DNA from: Micrococcus sp. 2A
GTDB taxonomy: Bacteria > Actinomycetota > Actinomycetes > Actinomycetales > Micrococcaceae
Length of the DNA stretch: 64,000 nucleotides
Reading direction: 5' to 3'
NCBI RefSeq assembly: GCF_039519235.1
Contig: NZ_CP154351.1
Coordinates: forward strand, 2,480,001 to 2,544,000
The notes under the pieces: generated by a model
Databases searched by the model: none
What the model was told of the DNA's origin: nothing
The model's input: only the letters and a program-made list of their open reading frames with translations
In this document: positions 4,981 to 60,217 of the stretch, piece after piece
Position numbering within the stretch: the first letter of the stretch is position 1
Layout: each line of letters begins with the position of its first letter
Made by a program: the position numbers and the translations under genes

Positions 4981-6036
4981 ATGCCGTCCACGGCCCTCTC
5001 CTCCCCGGCCCGCGCCCGCGCGGGCGTGCTGATGGGCGCCCTGCCCGCGGCGCTGCTGCTGGCGGCGCTCGTGGCCGGCGTCGCCCTCGGCGCGCGCACC
5101 GTGCCGGCGACGACGGCGCTCGACACCCTGGGCGCGGTCCTCACCGGGCACCCCGTGCCGGAGGGCATCGAGGCGGCGGCCGTGGCCTCCCGCGTGCCCC
5201 GCGTGGTGACGGGGGCGCTCGTGGGGGCGGCGCTGGCCGTGGCCGGCGCCGCCCTCCAGGGGGCCACCCGCAACCCGCTCGGCGACCCGGGGCTGCTCGG
5301 GCTCTCCGCCGGCGCGGGGCTGGCCGTGGCGGCGGGCATGGCGCTCGGCGTCGCCGGCTCCACGTTCGGGGTGCTGGCGCTGGCCGCCGTCGGGACGCTG
5401 GTCGCGGCGGCGCTCGGCTACGCGGTGGCCGCGGCCGCCACGCGGGGGGGCCGGACGCCCGGCGCCCCCTCCCCCATGGCGCTCGTGCTGGCCGGCGCCG
5501 CGCTCACCGCCGGCGCCACCGCCGGCACCACGGCGCTGCTCGTGCTCTCCCCCACGGTCCAGGACCGCCTGCGGTTCTGGGCCGTGGGCACGGTGGCCCG
5601 CGCCGACCTCGGCGAGGCGCTCGCCCTGGCGCCCGTGATCGCCGTCGGGCTGCTGGCCGCCGTCGTGGTGGCCCCCGGGCTCGACGCCCTCGCCCTCGGC
5701 GACGACCTCGCGCACGGCCTGGGCGGGCGCCCGGAGCGGGTGCGCGCGGTGCTGCTGGGCGCGGTCGTGCTGCTCACGGCCGCGGCGGTGGCGCTGGCCG
5801 GGCCGGTCGGGTTCGTGGGGCTGCTCGTGCCCCACGCGCTGCGCCGTCTGCGGCCGCCGAGCACGCGGGCCCTGATGGTCGGCTGCGCCCTGTGGGGCGC
5901 CGTCCTCGTGATCCTCGCGGACCTCGCCGGCCGGCTCGTGGTGGCGCCCGGGGAGATCCACCTCGGGGTGACCACCGTCCTGCTCGGCGTGCCCGTGCTG
6001 CTGGCGCTGCTGCGCCGCCCGGGGGTGGCCGCATGA
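4981..6036 (+). CDS. Iron-siderophore ABC transporter permease 1 (FecCD family)
   Basis: A 351-aa multi-spanning permease, mostly Ala/Leu/Val/Gly. The FecCD signature GAALQGATRNPLGDPGLLGLSAGAGL marks the coupling region (quoted in part: GATRNPLGDPGLLG). A second conserved stretch is GPVGFVGLLVPHALR near the C-terminus. It begins 9 bp after the binding-protein stop. Its TGA overlaps the ATG of the second permease in an ATGA junction, which indicates translational coupling. It should form a heterodimeric channel with the next gene product. Confidence 0.92.
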   Translation: MPSTALSSPARARAGVLMGALPAALLLAALVAGVALGARTVPATTALDTLGAVLTGHPVPEGIEAAAVASRVPRVVTGALVGAALAVAGAALQGATRNPLGDPGLLGLSAGAGLAVAAGMALGVAGSTFGVLALAAVGTLVAAALGYAVAAAATRGGRTPGAPSPMALVLAGAALTAGATAGTTALLVLSPTVQDRLRFWAVGTVARADLGEALALAPVIAVGLLAAVVVAPGLDALALGDDLAHGLGGRPERVRAVLLGAVVLLTAAAVALAGPVGFVGLLVPHALRRLRPPSTRALMVGCALWGAVLVILADLAGRLVVAPGEIHLGVTTVLLGVPVLLALLRRPGVAA

Positions 6037-7103
6037 GCCTCCAGCGCACCGCCTCGGACGACGTCGTCGCCCGCCTGCGCCGCTCCGACCGGCGCCGCCT
6101 CGGATGGGCCTGTGCGGGCCTCGCCGTGGCCGTGCTGGTCCTCGCCCTGCTGCGCGTGGTGTGGGGCACGTACCAGGTGACCGTCCCGGACCTCGTGCGG
6201 ATCCTGGCCGGGGAGACGATCCCGGGAGCGAGCTTCATCGTGCTGGAGGAGAAGCTGCCCCGCGCCGTGGCCGCGGTGCTCACCGGCGCCGCCCTGGGCG
6301 CGGCCGGCGCGCTCTACCGGCGCACCCTGCGCAACCCCCTGGCCTCGCCGGACATCCTGGGCGTCACCCAGGGCGCCGCGGCGGCGGTCGTGCTGGGGAT
6401 GCTGGCGACCGCCGGGCAGACCGGTGGCGGATCGGACCTGACGCGCGCCGCCACGGCACTGATCGGCGGCCTCGCGGCGGTGGTCGCCGTGTTCGCCACG
6501 GCCCGCTCGGTGGGTGGCGAACGGTTCGTGGTGGCCGGCATCGCGGTGGCGGCGGCGGGCCAGGCCGTGGTGGCCGGGGCCATGCTCTCGCTGGCCCAGC
6601 ACGACCTGCAGTCGGCCACCGTCTGGATCGCCGGCTCGCTCAACGGGGTCACGTGGGGCCGCATCGCGCTGCTCGCGGGCGTGCTCGTGGCCGCCCTGCC
6701 GCTGGCGGGGGTGCTCCACGCGCGGCTGGCCCCCGCCGACGTCGGCCCGGACCTCGCGCACGCCCTCGGCGCCCGACCGCGCCCCACCTCGGCCGCGGCG
6801 CTGGGGCTCGGCGCGGTGCTGGCCGCCGTGGCGACCGCCGTCGTGGGGCCGCTGGCGTTCGTGGCGCTGCTGGCCACCCCGGTGGCGCGCGGGCTCACCC
6901 GCGGCCTGCCCTCCCTGCCCGCGGCGGCGCTCACGGGCGCCGCGCTCGTGCTGCTCGCGGACCTCGTGGCCGGCGAGGCCGTCCCCCTGCTCACCGGCGC
7001 CGCCCTGCCCACCGGTGTGCTCACCGGCGCCGCCGGCGCCCCGCTCATGCTCTGGCTGCTGCTGCGCCAGGGCCGGACCCCAGGAGGCGTGCGCCCCGCA
7101 TGA
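6033..7103 (+). CDS. Iron-siderophore ABC transporter permease 2 (FecCD family)
   Basis: A 356-aa FecCD permease partnering the preceding one. The start is the ATG in the ATGA overlap at 6033, giving MSLQRTASDD. The same reading frame is open far upstream of this point, but that part lies over the other genes and has no transport features. Conserved parts: RRTLRNPLASPDILGVTQGA and VVGPLAFVALLATPVARGL. The gene ends in a second ATGA overlap with the ATPase gene (7100-7103). Confidence 0.92.
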   Translation: MSLQRTASDDVVARLRRSDRRRLGWACAGLAVAVLVLALLRVVWGTYQVTVPDLVRILAGETIPGASFIVLEEKLPRAVAAVLTGAALGAAGALYRRTLRNPLASPDILGVTQGAAAAVVLGMLATAGQTGGGSDLTRAATALIGGLAAVVAVFATARSVGGERFVVAGIAVAAAGQAVVAGAMLSLAQHDLQSATVWIAGSLNGVTWGRIALLAGVLVAALPLAGVLHARLAPADVGPDLAHALGARPRPTSAAALGLGAVLAAVATAVVGPLAFVALLATPVARGLTRGLPSLPAAALTGAALVLLADLVAGEAVPLLTGAALPTGVLTGAAGAPLMLWLLLRQGRTPGGVRPA

Positions 7104-7969
7104 CCGCTCCCCCGCTCACCGTCCCGTCCCCCGCCGCACCGCGCGCCGGGGCCGCTAACGACGTCGCGATCCGCCTGCGCGGCCTGACGCTCGGCTACGG
7201 CCCGGCTTCGGCGCCGCCGATCGTCGAGGACCTCGACCTGGACGTGCCCGCCGGGCGCGTCACCGCGATCATCGGCGCCAACGGCTGCGGCAAGTCCACG
7301 CTGCTGCGCGGCCTGACCCGCCAGCTCGCCCCGCGCGCCGGGAGCATCGAGGTGCTCGGCCGGGACGCCGCCCGCGTGTCCGCGCGCGACTACGCCCGCA
7401 CCGTGGCGCTGCTGCCCCAGCATCCCGTGGCGCCCGAGGGCATGACGGTGGCGCAGCTCGTGGCGCGCGGCCGTCACCCGCACCGCGGGCTCCTGGGCGG
7501 CCGGGCCGCCGGCGACGACGCCGCGATCGCCTCGGCGCTCGAGCGCACCGACCTCGTGGAGCTCGCCGAGCGCGAGGCCGGCACGCTCTCCGGCGGGCAG
7601 CGGCAGCGGGCGTGGCTCGCCCTCGTGCTCGCCCAGCAGACCCCGGTGGTGCTCCTCGACGAGCCCACGAGCTACCTCGACCTCAGCCATCAGGTGGAGG
7701 TGCTGGACCTGGTGCGCGCGCTCCCGGACCCGCGCGGCGGGGGCCGAGCGACCGTCGTCGCGGTGCTGCACGAGCTGAACCTGGCGGCGCGCAGTGCGGA
7801 CCACATCGTGGCGATGGCCGCGGGCCGGGTGGTGGCGCAGGGCACGCCGGGCGAGGTGATCGTGCCGGAGGTGCTGGCCGAGGTGTTCGGCCTGGACGCG
7901 GACGTGGTGGCCGACCCGCTGCTGGGCCACCCCGTGGTGCTGCCGCGCGGGGACGGGGACCGCCGATGA
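7100..7969 (+). CDS. Iron-siderophore ABC transporter ATP-binding protein
   Basis: A 289-aa cytoplasmic ATPase of the FecE/FepC type. It has Walker A (GANGCGKST), the LSGGQRQRAWLALVLAQ signature, Walker B (VVLLDEPTSYLD) and the switch His (VLHELNLAAR). The start ATG is the one overlapping the permease stop. Its own stop overlaps the next start as ATGA (7966-7969). It energises the two permeases. All core residues are intact. Confidence 0.94.
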   Translation: MTAPPLTVPSPAAPRAGAANDVAIRLRGLTLGYGPASAPPIVEDLDLDVPAGRVTAIIGANGCGKSTLLRGLTRQLAPRAGSIEVLGRDAARVSARDYARTVALLPQHPVAPEGMTVAQLVARGRHPHRGLLGGRAAGDDAAIASALERTDLVELAEREAGTLSGGQRQRAWLALVLAQQTPVVLLDEPTSYLDLSHQVEVLDLVRALPDPRGGGRATVVAVLHELNLAARSADHIVAMAAGRVVAQGTPGEVIVPEVLAEVFGLDADVVADPLLGHPVVLPRGDGDRR

Positions 7970-55828: not shown

Positions 55829-55955
55829 GGAGACAGAGTGAATCGCCGTTCACCGAGCGGGCGATCCCCATCCACGATGTGAGACGTTGTTTCGCATGGT
55901 GGTCATGTGTCGGCGTCATGGACGGGGGGCATGACCCTGCGCCTTCCCGGGGGCG

Positions 55956-55961
55956 TACCCT
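55956..55961 (+). promoter_or_regulatory. -10 element of the trp leader transcript
   Basis: TACCCT ends 7 nt before the ATG of the leader peptide, so transcription should start at or next to that ATG. Confidence 0.6.
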
Positions 55962-55968
55962 CACTGTC

Positions 55969-56001
55969 ATGCAGACGCGCGCGCAGTGGTGGACCGCCTG
56001 A
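55969..56001 (+). CDS. trpL: trp leader peptide
   Basis: A ten-residue peptide MQTRAQWWTA with two adjacent Trp codons (55987-55992), 101 bp before trpB. It has no Shine-Dalgarno and appears leaderless. Ribosome pausing at the Trp codons when charged tRNA-Trp is scarce would cover the segment 55994-55998 and change folding downstream. Confidence 0.8.
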   Translation: MQTRAQWWTA

Positions 56002-56057
56002 GGGCGGCCCCTGTCACGCGCACCTGACACACGAGCCGCCCGCCTGCCGGGCGGCTC
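55994..56057 (+). promoter_or_regulatory. Tryptophan attenuator
   Basis: Segment 1 CCGCC (55994-55998, ending in the leader stop region) pairs with GGCGG (56003-56007). Segment 2 GGGCGG (56002-56007) can instead pair with CCGCCC (56036-56041), the 5' half of the terminator. The terminator stem GAGCCGCCCG (56033-56042) / CGGGCGGCTC (56048-56057) is perfect with a 5-nt loop, followed by TTCGC. These mutually exclusive pairings are those of a classical transcription attenuator. Confidence 0.78.
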
Positions 56058-56102
56058 TTCGCATGAGCGGCTCCGGCGGGCACCACCCACCAGGAGGACC
56101 CC

Positions 56103-57449
56103 ATGACGCACCGCAATCCCGAGGACAACGCCCTGAGAACCGCCGCGGACATCGCCGGCGCCGACACCACCGCCGGTGTGCCGGACGCCGCCGAGCCCCG
56201 CACCCTCGCCGAGGCCACGGACCTCGTGCACACCCCGGACCTCGCGCCCTCCGAGGACGGCATGTTCGGCACCTACGGCGGCGCGATCCTGCCGCCCCCG
56301 CTGGCCGGCCCCATGCGCGAGGTCGCCGAGGCCTACGCGGAGGCACGCCATGACCCCGCGTTCTACGCCGAGTACGCCCGCCTGCTGCGCGACGTCGTCG
56401 GGCGCCCCTCCCCGCTGACCCCGCTCGAGCGCCTCTCCGACGAGCTCGGCGGAGCGCGGATCGTCCTCAAGCGCGAGGATCTGAACCACACCGGCGCGCA
56501 CAAGATCAACCACACCCTCGGCGAGGTCCTGCTGGCCAAGCGCATGGGCAAGCACAGCGTCATCGCAGAGACCGGCGCGGGCCAGCACGGCGTGGCCCTG
56601 GCGACGGCGGCCGCGCTCGTCGGCCTGGACTGCGAGATCCACATGGGCGCGATCGACGTGGCCAAGCAGCACCCGAACGTGGTGCGCATGCGCCTGCTCG
56701 GCGCCAAGGTCGTCTCCGTGGAGAAGGAGGGCCGCTCCCTCAAGGAGGCCGTGGACTCCGCGTTCGACGTCTACGCGCAGAACCCGGACAGGTACCTCTT
56801 CGCGATCGGCTCCGTGGTGGGCCCGCACCCCTTCCCCACGATGATCCGTGACTTCCAGGCCGTCGTCGGGCGTGAGGCCCGCGCGCAGTTCCAGGCGCGC
56901 TTCGGTGCGCTGCCGGACGCCGTCGTCGCGTGCGTGGGCGGCGGGTCCAACGCGATGGGCGCGTTCACCGCGTTCCTCGACGACGCCGACGTGCGGCTGG
57001 TGGGCGTGGAGCCCGGAGGCCGCTCCGGGGCCAAGGGCGAGCACGCGATGACGATGGGCAGGGGCGTGGACGGCATCATCCACGGCATGGCCACGAAGGT
57101 GCTCCAGGACGAGGCCGGCGTGCCGGACCCCGTGCACTCGATCGCCTCGGGGCTGGACTACCCGGGCGTGGGCCCGCAGCACGCCCGCTTCGCGCAGCTC
57201 GGCCGCGTGGAGTACGTGGCGGAGGACGACGCCGCGGTGCTGGACGCGTTCCAGCGGCTCGCGAGGCTCGAGGGCATCATCCCGGCGCTCGAGTCCTCCC
57301 ACGCGGTGGCGCGGGCGATCCGCATGGCCGCGGAGATGGGCACCGACCAGCGCATCCTGGTGAACCTCTCCGGCCGCGGGGACAAGGACGTCGACTACGT
57401 CGCCGAGAAGCTGGGCATCACGGGCGAGGCGGACGAGACGGTGCGCTGA
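56103..57449 (+). CDS. trpB: Tryptophan synthase beta chain
   Basis: A 448-aa PLP enzyme condensing indole with serine. PLP lysine K134 is in [12 protein letters not shown], catalytic E156 in AETGAGQHG, and GGGSNAMG binds the phosphate. The N-terminus is about 50 residues longer than the usual 397-aa TrpB1. AGGAGGACCCC precedes the ATG. No trpA, trpC or other trp gene is adjacent; downstream is a hydrolase fragment. The attenuator upstream makes tryptophan starvation the expected signal. It may be a second trpB or the only one, which the window cannot decide. Confidence 0.92.
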
Positions 57450-60027: not shown

Positions 60028-60105
60028 GGGCTCAGTCTGCCCCGGGACGGACGATCCGGCACGTGTCGAGCCATGCTGGGCCGGGCGGAGCAGAGCCATG
60101 CCGGG

Positions 60106-60168
60106 CCGAGCCGAGCCGAGCCGAGCCGAGGGAGGGAGGGAGGGAGGGAGGGAGGGAGGGAGGGAGGG
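60106..60168 (+). repeat. Tandem repeats (CCGAG)x5 and (GGAG)x9
   Basis: Five copies of CCGAG (60106-60130) run directly into nine copies of a GGAG tetranucleotide plus a partial (60131-60168). They lie in the 5' region of the effector-binding gene. The 60028-60384 spacer holds only these tracts, a hairpin and a heptamer repeat; no gene was seen in it. Confidence 0.95.
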
Positions 60169-60180
60169 TACGCGATCCAG

Positions 60181-60217
60181 AAATGCCATGGGTCAACTGG
60201 CTTAGCCCATGGCATTT
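60181..60217. repeat. Hairpin element B (CCATGG type)
   Basis: AAATGCCATGGG (60181-60192) pairs perfectly with CCCATGGCATTT (60206-60217) across 13 nt. Its right side shares TAGCCCATGGCATTT with element A at 53581. Confidence 0.8.

Follow-up and report, generated by a model that had tools for sequence, protein, structure and literature searches.

Leaderless tryptophan attenuators that precede single genes are already known. In Streptomyces lividans the leaders trpL1 and trpL2 precede the monocistronic trpE and trpS respectively, with the sequences MFAHSTRNWWWTAHPAAH and MMTRTCTQLWRAA; mapping of transcription start sites (TSS) identified them as leaderless, and their TAnnnT boxes have a mean distance of 6.3 nt (4–9 nt) to the TSS (PMC8079986). 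In Sinorhizobium meliloti the start codon of a Trp leader peptide forms the 5′ end of the attenuator RNA trpL/rnTrpL, which controls trpE(G), and the leader also acts in trans (PMC7298713). In Corynebacterium diphtheriae attenuators lie directly before the two trpBs, in trpB1EDGC and trpB2A, where trpB heads an operon; no leader TSS was found (PMC1262725, PMC5784534). On the side of the enzyme, plTrpB of Pelodictyon luteolum and LBCA TrpB are TrpB1-type proteins, with a gene apart from trpA (PMC11917138), and TrpB2_o is encoded by an additional trpB, located away from the operon, in species that have an operon trpB1 (PMC1854888). The archaeal TrpB2 proteins counted in that last study are the richer in Trp (mean 3.7 in such species), whereas the clade described below has fewer.

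The locus analysed here lies within a stretch of 64,000 nt of Micrococcus sp. 2A (the window), and its features are collected in Table 1. As in S. lividans the host is actinobacterial, a Trp leader peptide precedes a monocistronic target and the −10 box is of the TAnnnT form. In contrast to those leaders its leaderless start is presumed from sequence, the peptide ends as WW-x-x-stop directly before segment 2 of the attenuator, and the target is a stand-alone trpB. A position directly before trpB, in a genome with two trpBs, is shared with C. diphtheriae, although here the trpB does not head an operon, and an attenuator RNA beginning at the ATG of the leader peptide would be shared with S. meliloti. 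TrpB1 type and a gene apart from trpA recall plTrpB and LBCA TrpB, and a second trpB outside the operon recalls TrpB2_o. Since leaderless Trp attenuators on the single genes trpE and trpS are known from S. lividans, this is a known kind of switch on a new target, and the added interest is in the target, a member of a mostly Trp-free clade of stand-alone TrpBs. In the open-licence PMC literature we found neither this clade nor an orphan trpB under attenuation described before, though either may be in print elsewhere.

Table 1. Features of the leader, the putative attenuator and trpB (window coordinates).
Feature	Position	Strand	Remarks
Candidate −35, ATGACC, weak	55931..55936	+	read by eye; 19 nt before −10 box
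−10 box TACCCT (TAnnnT)	55956..55961	+	ends 7 nt 5′ of leader ATG
Leader peptide ORF MQTRAQWWTA, presumed leaderless	55969..56001	+	10 codons; Trp codons 55987–55992; stop 55999–56001
1:2 hairpin	55991..56010	+	55991–55998 with 56003–56010; A.C mismatch 55993/56008
2:3 antiterminator (putative)	56002..56041	+	56002–56008 with 56035–56041; 7 pairs; segment 2 from 56002
3:4 terminator stem	56033..56057	+	arms 56033–56042 and 56048–56057; 10 Watson–Crick pairs; loop 5; tail TTCGC
Shine–Dalgarno AGGAGG of trpB	56092..56097	+	read from sequence
Stand-alone second trpB	56103..57449	+	448 aa, 0 Trp; TIGR00263 515.8 bits against cut-off 392.45

The three helices of the leader were evaluated at −11.4 (1:2), −14.0 (2:3) and −22.4 kcal/mol (3:4), and 2:3 is incompatible with 1:2 as well as with 3:4. 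A preliminary description of this DNA had proposed the three-stem anatomy, the ten-codon leader with tandem Trp codons and the TACCCT box 7 nt before its ATG, and all three are borne out. The terminator that it called perfect is so in its stem but not in its U-tract, since the tail in the window is only UUCGC; the U-tract is very short in Micrococcus, and longer U runs occur in the Leucobacter group. The leader fold has z = −2.53, with 3 of 200 shuffles equally stable, and WW is present in just 3 of the 190 window ORFs that have an ATG start and at most 20 codons. Yet perfect 10-bp hairpins are not rare in the window (11 listings at 8 places), and a consensus scan for promoters and terminators found neither, so that conservation is the real test of the attenuator. 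No Rfam family reached its gathering score in the window or in 12 related loci, and with E values up to 10 there was nothing convincing: the best match, RcsR1, scored 18 bits where gathering requires 60. At position 56008 the window has C and a second genome of the same species (G440) has T, which makes an A–U pair of the A.C mismatch in 1:2.

Eighteen homologous leaders were gathered before orthologous trpBs in five genera. Four are from Micrococcus, seven from a genus (g38) that is probably Brachybacterium judging by named homologues, four from Leucobacter/g256, two from g262 and one from g313. The leader of G934 (g256) is the same as that of Leucobacter edaphi (L033) and was left out, and in G622 leader and trpB are on separate contigs, so that their linkage there is presumed. 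The stem layout and WW-x-x-stop are kept in all 18, while the peptide ranges from 10 to 15 residues and its N-terminal half varies in both length and sequence. In every one a TAnnnT box ends 6–7 nt before the leader ATG, a spacing found at 19 of the 812 ATGs in these loci, of which 18 are the leaders by construction. Five leaders (G622, G775, G779, G780 and G782) were recruited by R1, a covariance model whose alignment, of seven leaders, covers the −10 region; the box is equally present in all 13 leaders found via protein alone. An SD-like tetramer is absent from positions −20 to −4 in 15 of the 18, and in the other three there is AGGA beside or overlapping the −10 box. The spacing matches that between TAnnnT and TSS in S. 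lividans, which would place the start of transcription on the first letter of the leader ATG or beside it. The leaderless start that had been predicted in place of a Shine–Dalgarno sequence is well supported by this conserved arrangement.

Structure statistics were calculated on an alignment of the 18 leaders (A5) against 500 shuffles, with slid versions as control. For 1:2 and 3:4 taken together 94.8% of cells are paired, compared with 88.8% in shuffles and at most 58.3% when slid. Two-sided changes are found in 23 cells, a number that none of the 500 shuffles equalled, and fall at seven pairs, for which 36 of 500 shuffles were as high; six of the ten pairs of the terminator 3:4 have such changes and one of the eight in 1:2. 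Further pair types in these helices show no excess over shuffles (467 of 500 as high). For 2:3, 86.0% of cells are paired against 37–59% when slid, no pair has a two-sided change, and the shuffles are nearly equal (102 of 500 as high). Covariation backs the terminator and not the antiterminator, and 2:3 is a conserved complementarity. By eye, segment 2 (GGCGGUUC) and segment 3 (GAAUCGCC) are altered complementarily in g262, and 2:3 is weaker in the Leucobacter genomes G982 and G876.

We think it probable that this element is a ribosome-mediated attenuator, sensing charged tRNA-Trp on a leaderless transcript and driving a Trp-free stand-alone TrpB, most likely for the joining of indole to serine. 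Transcription would start at or next to A55969, and a ribosome would load on the 5′ end. With ample Trp it would get to the stop codon at 55999 and cover segment 2, and the 3:4 hairpin would end transcription near 56060. When Trp-tRNA is scarce it would stall on the tandem Trp codons, 10–15 nt upstream of segment 2, leaving most of that segment free to pair with segment 3, so that RNA polymerase would read into trpB. The Shine–Dalgarno sequence of trpB begins 35 nt past the end of the terminator stem, outside all three helices, which makes termination likelier than masking of that sequence. The enzyme would then most likely join free indole, from neighbours or from TrpA leakage, to serine; having no Trp residue, it could be synthesized even in cells short of Trp.

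The gene had been described as a lone trpB. This holds locally, since none of the five neighbouring genes scanned is a trp gene, but it does not hold for the genome. The genome search for a second trpB that had been suggested found one 1.3 Mb away (L003:9348-10670 of G000, a single contig of 2.62 Mb), encoding a protein 53% identical to the window TrpB. This adjoins trpC and trpA, with trpE upstream and lgt downstream (both identified by eye). The window trpB is therefore an accessory paralogue, and its being the sole trpB of the genome is ruled out. The trpE of the cluster starts within the stop of the preceding gene (L003:5951 and 5954) and has no WW leader near it, and a search of the genome with R1 at E ≤ 0.01 under stricter filters found only the window element. 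Both trpA and trpC are present in all 28 carrier genomes tested, ruling out a tie to loss of the pathway. The window TrpB has a match, over 94% of its length and at 90%, to a protein named as from M. luteus.

The window TrpB passes the TIGR00263 cut-off (Table 1) and is thus of TrpB1 type; TrpB2 identity was rejected, with scores far below the cut-offs (TIGR01415, 162.8 against 518.85 bits; NF009057, 171.3 against 366 bits). The AlphaFold2 model has a mean pLDDT of 86.0, and a fold search returns the TrpB fold, with P. furiosus TrpB nearest and LBCA TrpB, the best PDB match by sequence, among the others at 58% identity over the aligned core. The N-terminus, which had been thought unusually long, proves to be ordinary. 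Its first 28 residues have pLDDT below 50, and its length varies among relatives, with 52 residues before the GxFG motif in the window TrpB and that of G440 and 35–44 in five other relatives reported; PDB chain 5ocw, presumably the M. tuberculosis chain, aligns to it residue 35 to residue 35.

In a tree of 130 TrpBs, made by a quick method from the best 80 loci listed plus relatives, and so not a census and arbitrarily rooted, 42 rows group with SH-aLRT 100. They span Actinomycetota, Pseudomonadota, Bacteroidota, Campylobacterota, Bacillota and others. There is no trpA in the locus of 41 of the 42, or of five of the 88 rows outside (83 have it), an absence that is less sure in five orphan loci with under 900 nt on one side. 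On this tree orphan status has to change twice. This clade is also mostly free of Trp: zero Trp is found in 33 of its 42 members against 4 of the 88 outside, and those four are orphans. When the rows are sorted instead by trpA status, excluding L131, L133 and the duplicate L003, zero Trp is found in 36 of 46 TrpBs without trpA in the locus against 1 of 84 with it (L050), related rows not being independent. Among the 120 homologues of the window TrpB listed, 94 have zero Trp. Tryptophan is the most depleted residue, at 0.13-fold, followed by T at 0.69 and R at 0.71, while C and M are not depleted. The operon TrpB of the same genome has four Trp residues, the window TrpB none.

Four residues that we take to be catalytic, K134, E156, D352 and S423, are conserved in all 42 clade rows. 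An RDW motif lies outside the clade (R in 83, D in 80 and W in 84 of the 88 rows) in what is presumably the TrpA-facing helix; in the clade, where this W is one of the tryptophans lost, there is Y in 40 of the 42, and the window TrpB has D222 V223 Y224 in this place. Neither feature of a TrpA-coupled operon TrpB was found for the window protein, there being no trpA in its locus (L001) and no RDW in the presumed interface helix. Near the cofactor the clade has HKINH..E where HKINN..Q stands elsewhere. At position 279 of LBCA TrpB, an alpha–beta interface site (PMC11917138), 41 of the 42 have F or M, the numbering here taking an offset of 2 between paper and chain deduced from matching letters. 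The six-residue signature of plTrpB, LBCA-Res6 (E36, E42, T53, S187, A279 and M280; PMC11917138), was rejected as the reason for stand-alone activity, since the window TrpB has A, A, S, S, M and A and only S187 matches; S at this position is found in 40 of 42 clade rows compared with 15 of 88 others.

How widespread are the gene and its leader? The gene is present in five of 11 Micrococcus genomes at E ≤ 1e-145 (G000 and G440, of one species, G002, G005 and G007), and the leader in all but the last. The G007 ortholog (L006) has no WW leader; what precedes it is a gene that by eye resembles RNase J, and an inverted repeat rich in GC. There are matches in 12 of 396 genomes across the order at E ≤ 1e-143, G000 and G007 among them, in 10 of 349 of family f19 at E ≤ 1e-148, and in 11 of 394 of a class-wide sample at E ≤ 1e-136; nine of these last have an adjoining trpA and so are ordinary TrpBs, only G000 and G182 being orphans. 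In g38, R1 matches eight of 38 genomes at E ≤ 0.001. Seven have a leader of the orphan-trpB type (G459, G622, G746, G775, G779, G780 and G782), and in the eighth (G713) a WW leader of another kind precedes a TrpE-like gene. G780 has a second, weaker match (L168, E 8.4e-5), without the TGGTGG(G/A)CC core, about 30 kb from its orphan-trpB leader. Among 27 actinobacterial orphan trpBs examined via protein, excluding G622 and G934, a WW leader is present in 13. The other 14 have none in the 450 or 700–900 nt upstream that were covered (L006, L007, L051, L113, L127–L133, L175, L176 and L178), and the attenuator is thus confined to some sub-lineages and not general to the clade. In L133 a WW ORF lies farther out, about 760 nt before the match, and was excluded from the leader count. 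T-boxes sought in 11 loci of leader-less orphan trpBs from several phyla gave none at gathering.

Comparison of the upstream flanks by blastn between G000/G440, G002, G005 and G007 gave no mutual match, and the downstream flanks have in common only a stretch of 640 bp between G002 and G007, inverted in one relative to the other. In Leucobacter edaphi the gene and leader lie between fmt and priA (identified by eye). The non-matching flanks and this different site suggest a single-gene cassette that appears to change place. Searching plasmid records gave 80 matches at E ≤ 1e-100, four at 60–80% identity (the best 63.4%) and 76 under 60%; at such low identities nothing points to a recent transfer from plasmids into Micrococcus. 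One trpB, at 5994-7166 of a 44-kb Acinetobacter baumannii record (CM018764.1), encodes a protein 62.9% identical to the window TrpB and possibly belongs to the same stand-alone clade.

The switch is not restricted to orphan trpBs. Across the order R1 gave 41 matches in 39 of 396 genomes at E ≤ 0.01, from which 30 loci were taken; 28 of these and L136 were examined, with L161 left out. Besides those of orphan trpBs there are 13 loci with WW leaders, the rest of the 28 having none. Eight targets, in other families of the order, are divergent genes that are TrpE-like by tblastn (L138, L139, L141, L143–L146 and L153); of four that were scanned all have a chorismate-binding domain and none reaches a TrpE cut-off. 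Four encode a tryptophanyl-tRNA synthetase (L140 and L142 by HMM, L147 and L160 by likeness to L142), and one (L154, in G607, with the leader MTYMNRQWWWLA) is a trpX-type ABC binding protein, scoring 391.7 bits with NF041285 against a cut-off of 390. By eye, TAnnnT lies 6–7 nt before the start in most of these 13 leaders, but not in the trpS leaders L142, L147 and L160. To judge from these leaders and targets, the order uses a common scheme of Trp attenuation with several predicted targets, the orphan trpB being one of them. This agrees with the Trp attenuators predicted elsewhere (PMC1262725) and with trpL1 and trpL2 of S. lividans (PMC8079986).

What would the window TrpB do? Its likeliest and most economical job would be the rescue of indole under Trp starvation, and salvage of indole and serine fits the stand-alone clade, the Trp-free protein and the altered helix presumed to face TrpA. 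The same attenuator might drive not an indole scavenger but a starvation-proof beta subunit that takes the place of the Trp-containing operon TrpB in TrpAB. In its favour, trpA is present in every carrier tested, the active-site residues checked are conserved, and the operon TrpB has four Trp residues where the window TrpB has none; but the RDW of the presumed TrpA-facing helix is gone in the clade, the interface site at LBCA 279 is F or M in all but one row, and the gene rarely adjoins trpA, and we consider this unlikely. That the enzyme accepts some nucleophile in place of indole, or that its product is not Trp, could be argued from the clade-specific residues near the cofactor and the stand-alone habit of the clade. 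Control through Trp codons points, however, to Trp itself, and with the catalytic K, E, D and S conserved and the likeness of the core to LBCA TrpB this reading is improbable.

Other readings concern the leader. When Trp is plentiful the product would be a leaderless mini-mRNA some 90 nt long, and there is a precedent in the rnTrpL and peTrpL of S. meliloti (PMC7298713) for an attenuated leader RNA or peptide that also acts in trans. Yet what is kept across the 18 leaders is WW-x-x-stop and the stems, while the N-terminal half of the peptide varies, and we think it very improbable that such action is the main role. Nor do we give much credence to there being no attenuation at all, the Trp-rich ORF standing by chance before an ordinary hairpin, or the hairpin controlling translation of trpB. 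Hairpins are indeed common in GC-rich DNA, as the listings in the window attest, but 18 conserved copies with a covarying terminator, and a trpB Shine–Dalgarno sequence free of all three helices, argue against this.

If indole rescue under the control of the attenuator is correct, the pathway keeps a spare last enzyme that is translatable without its product amino acid and is induced by stalling at the codons of that same amino acid. The leader would be a compact leaderless attenuator, about 90 nt long, that uses the first ribosome to load as its sensor, and from the clade biochemists could draw natural candidates for stand-alone TrpBs. A more general picture, which we advance tentatively and with the chances slightly against it, is that a multi-phylum stand-alone clade of TrpB1 type gave up Trp and its coupling to TrpA, becoming a starvation-proof rescue enzyme that converts indole to Trp, and that several lineages added a Trp-sensing attenuator of their own, in Actinomycetales as a single-gene leaderless cassette at differing genomic places.

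Two minor observations may be recorded. The orphan trpBs of Mailhella (L064), a Deltaproteobacteria MAG (L070) and Ancylomarina (L045) have by eye an upstream WW or WWW ORF followed by a hairpin and T-run; L064 and L070 lie outside the orphan TrpB clade and L045 inside it, and such a leader in Bacteroidota would be unusual. Elsewhere in the window, at about 60080-60190, there is a short G-rich tandem repeat that appears as REGGREGGREGG in translated ORFs.
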